From a virus: a stretch of DNA of 40,901 nucleotides. Numbering within the stretch: position 1 is the stretch's first letter; each line of letters starts with the position of its first letter. Under the pieces are notes generated by a model. That model did no database searches and was not told where the DNA came from. It saw only the letters and a program-made list of their open reading frames with translations. This document shows positions 8,301-10,957 of this stretch, one piece after another. Location: positions 1-40,901 of the IMG/VR virus record IMGVR_UViG_3300042566_000137. One strand, written 5' to 3'. Both the position numbers and the translations under genes were made by a program.

Positions 8301-9554
8301 TTAATAGCCAGCAATAAAATCAATTGGTTCATAGTCATCTTCACCGTCATCCATGAAGTAGGTAGTTACAGCGAGTTGATCAACGTAGCTTAAAGCATCG
8401 ATCAAGTCATCGTGTACTTGGTTGGTAGGGAACATCAAGAGCTGATCTACGAACTCTTTCCAGTCCTCATCCTCATTCAGGATTACCTTACCGTGTTCAA
8501 AGCGTCCCTGCAATGCCCAGACGATACGCTCTGTTTTATTCTTACCACCGTGCGTTAAGTCTTGAATGGTAGCGTAGGTGTTGTTAGACCTCATCAGATC
8601 GCTTAGATAGGGCAACACAGCGTTTCTAACTGTGCCTCGCTCCATTCCTACACCGATAGGTTGAAACTCCTTGATGTTCTTTAAAATCCTTGCAGCGCAG
8701 TCCTTTACATCCCACCTGCCATGCTCAATCTTTTTTACAAACCAAACACCATCATCTGTGACCTTAACCACAGCAATTGCAGACTCATCTAACTTCTTCT
8801 TACGAGACTCTGAATAGTTGGTATTAGTGAATCCCGCTAAGTCGATTGCCAGGTAGTATACCCCATCGCTTGGTTCTTCACCATACTCAATCCATTGTTC
8901 TTTGAATAAGTCTGTTCCTGCATTATCGAAAGAAGCTTCATACTCTTGCTTGAATGAGAAGCTACTTAATGTCTTTCTTGCACCCTCGATCTCTTTAGGA
9001 TCAATCAGTGGGTTATCTTTAGTAGTGAAGTGCCAAGACTTCCACTCTTCATCTTCATCTGTAAGACCAAGGTTGTACATATCGTAGAACCAGTTCCTAC
9101 CCTTTGGAGTTCCAATGAACAGAGCAGAACCCTTCTTATCTGAAAGAGAAGCTCTTAAGACCTTCTCCCAAGTATCTGGTTTTATGTCAGCTACCTCGTC
9201 TAATACTAGGTATGTTAAGCTGACCCCTCGAAGGGTATCTGGTCTATCAGCACCTCGAACATATATCTTAGCACCATTAATCAAAGTGATATCCATATTA
9301 TTAACATGGCTACTCTGAATCACTTCTCTTCCTAAATCCATCAGGACATCCCAGATAATCTGTCTAGCTTGTCCTTGAGTAGGAGCAACATACATTACAG
9401 CAGAACCTTGCGGGCAACGTAGTCCCTCTACTAATAATGCTACAGCAGATAATCTTGATTTACCACATCGTCGTCCAGCAACAATAACTTTAAACCTGGT
9501 CTTATCTTGGAATACTTCTTTCTGCCAAGGTAGTAACTCGAAACTGAGGTTCAT
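8301..9554 (-). CDS. Terminase large subunit
   Basis: The DNA-packaging motor ATPase and nuclease, 417 residues. Visible motifs are the Walker A region AGRRCGKSR at about residues 26-34, the Walker B LTYLVLDE with D119/E120, the coupling motif GTPKG near 148-152, and the RuvC-like nuclease start YLAIDLAG with D238, followed by HDDLIDALSYV near the C-terminus supplying further acidic ligands. It overlaps the preceding gene by 4 bases (ATGA). The order with portal, scaffold and coat is the usual one. Confidence 0.95.
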   Translation of the reverse strand: MNLSFELLPWQKEVFQDKTRFKVIVAGRRCGKSRLSAVALLVEGLRCPQGSAVMYVAPTQGQARQIIWDVLMDLGREVIQSSHVNNMDITLINGAKIYVRGADRPDTLRGVSLTYLVLDEVADIKPDTWEKVLRASLSDKKGSALFIGTPKGRNWFYDMYNLGLTDEDEEWKSWHFTTKDNPLIDPKEIEGARKTLSSFSFKQEYEASFDNAGTDLFKEQWIEYGEEPSDGVYYLAIDLAGFTNTNYSESRKKKLDESAIAVVKVTDDGVWFVKKIEHGRWDVKDCAARILKNIKEFQPIGVGMERGTVRNAVLPYLSDLMRSNNTYATIQDLTHGGKNKTERIVWALQGRFEHGKVILNEDEDWKEFVDQLLMFPTNQVHDDLIDALSYVDQLAVTTYFMDDGEDDYEPIDFIAGY

Positions 9555-10018
9555 TTATATGAATCCTCTTCATTATCTACCTCTTGATAATCTACAATCT
9601 CAGCTTCGCAGTAACCTGATTCTGTTACTGCATCAATCTCTTCTATTGCTTCTACTTTAGTTTCACCTAATCCAGTAATATTAATAGTTACTGCATTACG
9701 TTGTCCTTTAGCATCTTTCTCAAATAATGATGTGGGTAGTAATCTATCCATACACATCTTGAGGCAAGCTACTTGATCTTTATCGTCATCATCTAAAGCC
9801 TTACGGAGTACAGTATCAATTACTTTCGTACCACTCGTTGATAATAATCTAGCTTTAAACTCTTGGATTCGTCCTGCGTCACCTAATGGTCTGCCTACCT
9901 TACCTGGTCTCTTCTTGCTCTGCACAAGCGACTTAGGAGGACGACCTCTCCTACGAGCAGGTGCTGGTTCTAAGACATCCACCTTAATAGGAGACAAATC
10001 CTTTAAATCTTGAGACAT
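9551..10018 (-). CDS. Putative terminase small subunit
   Basis: A 155-residue protein upstream of, and overlapping, the large terminase gene; this position suggests DNA recognition for packaging. The N-terminal third is very basic with two AT-hook-like motifs (RRRGRPPK and VGRPLG); the middle is helical (IQEFKARLLSTSGTKVIDTVLRKALDDDDKDQVACLKMCMDRLL) and the C-terminus acidic. ATG 10018 is chosen because AAAGGAT precedes it, although an in-frame TTG exists 30 bases upstream. I do not see a classic helix-turn-helix, so the call rests mainly on context. Confidence 0.65.
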   Translation of the reverse strand: MSQDLKDLSPIKVDVLEPAPARRRGRPPKSLVQSKKRPGKVGRPLGDAGRIQEFKARLLSTSGTKVIDTVLRKALDDDDKDQVACLKMCMDRLLPTSLFEKDAKGQRNAVTINITGLGETKVEAIEEIDAVTESGYCEAEIVDYQEVDNEEDSYK

Positions 10019-10077
10019 ATATCCTTTACCTGCTAACGCAGAGAACAATTAATAAATGAATTTCTACTAATTAGTTT

Positions 10078-10153: not shown

Positions 10154-10182
10154 ATTATACCACAACTTCTTAGATTTGTCAA
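10154..10182 (-). promoter_or_regulatory. Sigma70-type promoter, extended -10 (terminase/late operon)
   Basis: On the - strand TTGACA (10177-10182), a 17-bp spacer and TATAAT (10154-10159), preceded by TTGTGG. AATAAAGC lies directly upstream of the -35 box. Transcription would start near 10147 and leave a leader of about 130 bases before the terminase start at 10018. It is the main candidate for the late structural promoter. Confidence 0.9.
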
Positions 10183-10322: not shown

Positions 10323-10516
10323 ATCTTCCTTTTAAATATAGACATCAGTAGTTAACATCTCTTAAGATAACTCATTGATTACATTGAACATATTGTCTAC
10401 TTAGCTACTGCCTAATTATTAAGCAATTATTGCCTATTTTTTAAGCAGTTGAATTCTACTTTTTAGGTGTTTCAGAGCCTGAGTCAGAAATCAGAACAGC
10501 TACTGACCCCTCCCCC

Positions 10517-10649
10517 ATAGTCAAAAACTATCAAGATTAAAAAGTCAATAGATTTTAGCTATTACTAGGTCATTTTATGAGCTTGCGATAGTTTAAAGCT
10601 ATCACTAACCAGGTCTTGATAGTTAAAAGCTATGATAGAGAAAAACTAT
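10517..10649. repeat. Five palindromic ATAG-N7-CTAT elements
   Basis: Copies start at 10517, 10548, 10588, 10619 and 10635. All have exactly seven AT-rich bases between the arms (TCAAAAA, ATTTTAG, TTTAAAG, TTAAAAG, AGAAAAA). Start-to-start distances are 31, 40, 31 and 16 bp, near 3, 4, 3 and 1.5 helical turns. The region has no supported gene. An operator array or replication-origin iterons are the likely readings. Confidence 0.85.
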
Positions 10650-10680
10650 TGAGTACTAGATATCGATAGAAATAATTGTA

Positions 10681-10709
10681 TTGACAGAAATGAATAAGGA
10701 TGGTAGAGA
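10681..10709 (+). promoter_or_regulatory. Possible weak + strand promoter
   Basis: TTGACA (10681-10686) is followed after 17 bp by TAGAGA (10704-10709), preceded by TGG as in the phage's extended -10 promoters. The -10 box matches only 3 of 6 positions. It lies just past the ATAG-N7-CTAT array, which makes it a possible regulated early promoter. Confidence 0.3.
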
Positions 10710-10928
10710 CACTCTGAAGCACTCTAGACACTAACCAGCATACACAAGTAAACATCCACTAACCTATAAACTAACCAGCAATTGCCTATAAATTAAGCAA
10801 TACTGTTTAAAACGATTTTAAGGGCATTTATAGCCGTTTTAGTCTAATCTGATACCTTACTATCAACTGCTATACGATCTCGATTTATTAGGGTAAACCC
10901 TTAAGGGAAAACACCTATAAAATAATTG

Positions 10929-10957
10929 TTGACAATTGGAATAAATAGGCATATAGT
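10929..10957 (+). promoter_or_regulatory. Early + strand promoter
   Basis: TTGACA (10929-10934), a 17-bp spacer and TATAGT (10952-10957), with an AT-rich stretch upstream that could act as an UP element. Transcription would begin near 10964, about 38 bases before the first + strand gene at 11002. This is the best candidate for the early promoter. Confidence 0.88.

Follow-up and report, generated by a model that had tools for sequence, protein, structure and literature searches.

Which protein would bind a cluster of ATAG-N7-CTAT palindromes lying between the two divergent gene blocks of a phage genome? The question is raised by the virus record IMGVR_UViG_3300042566_000137, the whole of which (40,901 bases, hereafter the window) was analysed here.

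An array of palindromes between divergent promoters

A first-pass annotation of the window had described five 15-bp elements with a 7-base spacer within 133 bp, at start distances of 31, 40, 31 and 16 bp, and this was confirmed by an exact-match scan. The elements start at positions 10517, 10548, 10588, 10619 and 10635, all of them inside 10517-10649, and no other copy of ATAG-N7-CTAT occurs elsewhere in the record. When the same arms were searched with a spacer of 6 or 8 bases, no match was obtained within the window. The annotation had proposed a genome-wide count against shuffled sequence and a look at related phages, and both came out in favour of the array: against its five clustered copies, dinucleotide shuffling of the whole window (100 times) produced on average 1.2 exact matches, scattered and never more than 4, and the array is present in relatives, though many others lack it. 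A chance origin is thus ruled out by the shuffles together with the conservation in relatives.

The array had also been placed in a gene-free stretch between early (+) and late (-) promoters. No ORF of at least 50 aa is found between 10048 and 11229, which leaves a gap of 1.2 kb. The minus-strand genes on its left are those for the portal protein and the large terminase, with an unassigned ORF (9551-10048) in the place of a small terminase gene; on its right, the plus strand carries the early genes, a T7-like primase-helicase, a DNA polymerase, an exonuclease, a ribonucleotide reductase and a weak match to a single-strand-binding protein. Since a leftward promoter (10182-10154) and a rightward promoter (10929-10957) flank the array, it does lie between divergent promoters, as had been claimed. 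Over 47 bp, the stretch containing the leftward promoter shows an 87% match to a promoter annotated in Pseudomonas phage tf.

Among cultured phages, the replication genes are best matched in Pelagibacter phages (51% for the primase and 50% for the polymerase), while no close cultured relative of TerL was found. A host search via prophages or misbinned contigs in bacterial genomes yielded remote TerL matches alone (Verrucomicrobia and other phyla) and was uninformative. Neither an integrase nor a repressor was found among the proteins scanned, a subset of the ORFs, and the lineage is apparently lytic; because the scan covered part of the ORFs, we infer this lifestyle rather than observe it.

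Agreement with OxyR sites in sequence and spacing

OxyR is a LysR-type peroxide sensor with the published dimer site ATAG-n7-CTAT (PMC5002191), and its tetramer binds two dimer elements. At the E. coli oxyR-oxyS locus, three OxyR sites are centred at -66, -44 and -35 from the oxyS start, and site pairs 22 bp apart correspond to oxidised and those 31 bp apart to reduced OxyR (PMC5002191). The oxidised protein touches four contiguous grooves, whereas the reduced one touches two groove pairs with one further turn between them (PMC5002191, after Toledano et al. 1994). An inner consensus, ATAGnTnnnAnCTAT, and a reduced-form spacing are given in PMC2909390, and a Pseudomonas four-element site reads ATAG-N7-CTAT-N7-ATAG-N7-CTAT (PMC5720770). 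The features of the control region are listed below with their positions in the window.

10154..10182, minus strand: perfect sigma-70 promoter TTGACA-17-TATAAT with TG before the -10, facing the terminase and late genes
10409..10425, no strand: second palindrome family, TGCCTAATTATTAAGCA, of the form TGCCTA-N4/5-TTAAGCA; copies at 10431-10447 and 10783-10799
10517..10531, no strand: candidate OxyR-type dimer site 1, ATAGTCAAAAACTAT; forms pair 1 with site 2 at 31 bp; the same in relatives L127, L134 and L138
10548..10562, no strand: candidate OxyR-type dimer site 2, ATAGATTTTAGCTAT; full match to the ATAGnTnnnAnCTAT consensus
10588..10602, no strand: candidate OxyR-type dimer site 3, ATAGTTTAAAGCTAT; matches the consensus in full; forms pair 2 with site 4 at 31 bp
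10619..10633, no strand: candidate OxyR-type dimer site 4, ATAGTTAAAAGCTAT; full consensus
10635..10649, no strand: candidate OxyR-type dimer site 5, ATAGAGAAAAACTAT; abuts site 4; kept in L127 as ATAGGGAAAAACTAT
10666..10680, plus strand: possible degenerate sixth site, left ATAG arm only, adjoining the putative -35
10681..10709, plus strand: putative weak rightward promoter TTGACA-17-TAGAGA directly 3' of the array, under the scan threshold
10929..10957, plus strand: early promoter TTGACA-17-TATAGT (11/12), facing the early genes

All five elements are exact copies of the 15-bp OxyR dimer site, and the two elements 22 or 31 bp apart that a tetramer binds are found twice in the window, both times at 31 bp (10517 with 10548, and 10588 with 10619). 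On the MG1655 oxyR-oxyS sequence (L287), the elements were located at 624, 633 and 655, which recovered the distances of 31 and 22 bp. The inner bases of ATAGnTnnnAnCTAT are present in part, at 8/10 positions in the window, with a full match in three sites; among 22 distinct sites of the family, the T is found in 10/22 and the A in 17/22. The 40-bp and 16-bp distances of the array are not OxyR distances. The annotation had related the spacing to whole or half helical turns, which misses the point, as 31 bp, like the 22 bp seen in relatives, is one of the specific spacings of OxyR dimer sites. Site 5 lies directly against site 4, so that the two are probably used as alternatives. The lone ATAG at 10666 is located exactly 31 bp past site 5, a distance repeated in L127, where the promoter-like element at 10681-10709 is conserved as well. 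At the equivalent place, L134 and L138 show TTGCAG/TTGCAT-17-TAGAGA/TAGCGA, and in both a degenerate fourth element overlaps the corresponding -35.

TerL and primase searches led to about 150 loci, and the family set comprises 52 phylogenetically related control regions, window included. Exact ATAG-N7-CTAT elements number 48 in these regions versus 3.1 in shuffles, and in 23/52 an exact element has a partner matching at least 7/8 arm bases at 21, 22, 30 or 31 bp, versus 0.02 in shuffles; since the loci share phylogeny, these counts are of non-independent events. Pair distances below 60 bp were 31 bp (19), 22 bp (7), 40 bp (3), 16 bp (2), 47 bp (2) and 30, 39 and 57 bp (1 each). Four relatives (L151, L189, L193, L201) carry ATAG-N7-CTAT-N7-ATAG-N7-CAAT, with elements 22 bp apart, which agrees with the published four-element site in 15/16 bases, and three others (L170, L171, L179) have a near-identical second site after 16 rather than 7 bases, that is, at 31 bp. 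No other single argument for OxyR as the putative binder is as strong as this alternation, within one family, between exactly the two OxyR geometries that are known. In L138, site 3 keeps all eight arm bases with its spacer and flanks changed, and relatives at 63% primase identity have arrays with 31/25/30-bp steps in the same terminase/early gap. Copy number ranges from 1 to 5 across relatives. Five phages (L128, L129, L131, L132, L133) have a TerL 97-99% identical to that of the window, yet lack the array; as it is missing from many relatives, the array is non-essential.

In the whole viral collection, consensus pairs were found in 42 contigs, and they are 31 bp apart in 11, among the matches listed; two of these 11 (L294 and L299) share their neighbouring ORFs and seem to be a single virus. 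Control arm sequences of the same form, searched in the whole collection, gave 31-bp pairs in 0/57 and 0/19 contigs. AGTA/TACT was dropped as a control pattern, its matches being apparent coding repeats spaced by multiples of three. Consensus pairs in the 22 contigs examined are nearly all intergenic. Two other phages have 31-bp OxyR-consensus pairs near small-terminase-like genes (L302, 575-620; L305, 6206-6251).

Candidate binding proteins and purposes of the array

No LysR-type HTH was found in the phage genome, which rejects a phage-encoded LysR regulator, and comparison of the early region revealed no gene family confined to array-bearing phages and present in all of them. Because of these two results, binding is most likely by the host's OxyR or by another LysR protein with matching specificity, and we consider it likely that the array represents sites for one of these host regulators in the divergent early/late region. 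The first-pass annotation had suggested a regulator-binding array served by a small early protein, an origin-binding protein or a host factor; the sequence data support the regulator-binding part, and the host factor is the better of these options.

A different host LysR-type regulator might use the same ATAG-N7-CTAT dimer site, in which case the circuit would sense a metabolite and not peroxide. The T-N11-A dimer geometry and the two-distance tetramer sites are indeed common to LysR proteins (PMC5002191), but published OxyR sites have this very arm sequence and both the 22-bp and the 31-bp distance, and pairs of the control ATAC-N7-GTAT show no 31-bp class in viral contigs, so that we regard this regulator as an unlikely binder. 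For LsrB, a related regulator, one Agrobacterium paper was searched for a shared motif and yielded none.

Quite unlikely, in our opinion, is the binding of the array by a repressor or early regulator encoded by the phage itself. The control region is the usual place of phage operators, and several conserved small early proteins have no assigned function. However, apart from the missing LysR HTH, no regulator gene co-occurs with these operators among the early genes across the family, and relatives with a 97-99% identical TerL retain the shared early genes without the array; hence, the small early protein of the annotation finds no support. Of the families that occur in three or more of the nine closest relatives, a single one is found in the window and, wherever it occurs, in array-bearing phages alone; it codes for an acidic early protein of 68 aa, which is restricted to array-bearing close relatives but missing from array-bearing L138.

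The decoy reading is a variant of the best explanation, since OxyR would bind but with a different purpose: sites on replicating phage DNA would titrate OxyR off host antioxidant genes. The sites are multiple and near-perfect, and the two complete 31-bp pairs are not directly beside a recognised promoter, as would suit a decoy. Nevertheless, relatives with two sites place them upstream of the promoter at fixed positions, which fits better with local control, and many relatives have no array, so that we give titration a low probability. Finally, an iteron-like replication origin is very improbable, because, although the array is intergenic, AT-rich, repeated and 5' of the T7-like primase-helicase and DNA polymerase, close relatives sharing the early and replication genes lack it (which also leaves the origin-binding protein of the annotation unsupported), copy number varies from 1 to 5, and the distances are those of OxyR dimers, not one constant iteron period.

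Returning to host OxyR, or a host regulator of the same specificity, the pairs formed by sites 1 and 2 and by sites 3 and 4 would each be one tetramer site with the 31-bp geometry of reduced OxyR, and site 5 together with the degenerate half-site 31 bp further on, by the weak rightward promoter, would probably be an alternative pair. In the unstressed cell, the array would be bound by OxyR in its reduced form, which would govern how the early promoter downstream is transcribed. Under peroxide stress, OxyR would move to 22-bp contacts, and the window sites offer none; therefore, occupancy and early transcription would change. Relatives with the 22-bp geometry would respond in the other OxyR state. 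In the two-site subgroup, the nearer element is calculated to lie some 65 bp 5' of the putative start, and OxyR could act both from the weak promoter adjacent to the array and from this upstream distance. The sequence shows the sites with their spacing, conservation and position; from these we infer OxyR as the binder, and early transcription that would change, by activation or by repression, with the redox state of OxyR. Since the conserved array has the sequence and spacing of OxyR sites, the virus probably lets the oxidative state of the host influence its gene expression.

Known systems and other possible operators of the control region

OxyR also acts on Mu mom, and OxyR sites in phages are already known from P22 gtr and Pf4 xisF4. 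The window array resembles the E. coli oxyR-oxyS region (IR1-IR3) in its 15-bp ATAG-n7-CTAT elements, in the 22/31-bp distances and in the divergent promoters (PMC5002191); in contrast to the three overlapping degenerate sites there, it has five exact ones with two or three 31-bp pairs, and its carrier is a phage in which no oxyR gene lies close by. With gtr of Salmonella phage P22, it would share several OxyR half-sites, the reduced-form spacing and alternative pairs on phage DNA (PMC2909390). However, gtr is a lysogenic-conversion operon whose phase variation by OxyR and Dam depends on GATC methylation, whereas the five window elements contain no GATC and lie in an early/late control region. 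In the Pseudomonas filamentous phage Pf4, OxyR binds ATAGTCTTGCTCTAT and controls the phage switch gene xisF4 (EMSA; PMC12395586), but through a single site and for prophage excision, while the window has a multi-site array and the proteins scanned give no hint that its phage is lysogenic.

What appears to be new is the placing of a multi-site OxyR-type array between early and late genes, in their control region, when the lineage is apparently lytic. In the literature, covered incompletely, we met with no lytic phage whose early/late control region had been described as carrying operators for OxyR, FNR or Fur. If the OxyR reading is true, an apparently lytic lineage common in environmental metagenomes would read the oxidative state of its host via the host's own sensor, and OxyR control would hit the infection programme itself, as opposed to the known lysogenic-conversion and excision genes. 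The natural 31-bp and 22-bp variants would be ready-made pairs for telling which OxyR state is used.

Six relatives, part of them with the array and part without (L129, L133, L134, L138, L013, L217), have TTGAY-N4-RTCAA at an unvarying distance of 21 bases from a -10-like hexamer that follows it (TACAAT, GACAAT or GATAAT). These FNR/ANR-like boxes read TTGATCTAGGTCAA (or TTGACCTAGATCAA) and are centred near -41; by this position and by the constant distance to the -10, they resemble FNR class II promoters; the window differs in having no such box. Exact FNR boxes in the 52 family regions number five versus 0.28 in shuffles, for a motif picked by eye before the test and with statistics that leave this choice uncorrected. 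Fur-like boxes were found in L129 and L133 (GAGAATGATTATCATTAAC, 16/19, and GAGAATGATTATCAATAAC, 15/19), with scores unreached in 300 shuffles, for a motif likewise picked by eye and with the choice uncorrected, and in the control regions of both phages a second GAGAATAGTTCTCATT precedes the FNR-like promoter. We propose, tentatively and with less than even confidence, that the divergent control region might be a swappable sensor module, in which near-identical phages would exchange OxyR (peroxide), FNR (oxygen) and Fur (iron) operator cassettes, tuning early transcription to redox state.

Palindromes of the TGCCTA-N4/5-TTAAGCA family are present in the window as two copies 22 bp apart and a third further on; most relatives have kept the palindrome, in some cases in inverted orientation, whether or not they carry the ATAG array. 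In the array-less L128, L129, L131, L132 and L133, the control regions contain direct CTAGRCAAT repeats resembling half-sites of this palindrome. A further motif, TAGGGTAAAYACCTA / TAGGGTTTTCCCTA, is found directly 5' of the early-promoter -35 in relatives including L137, L146, L159, L013 and L189, with a related sequence near 10890-10920 of the window, and is possibly another operator.
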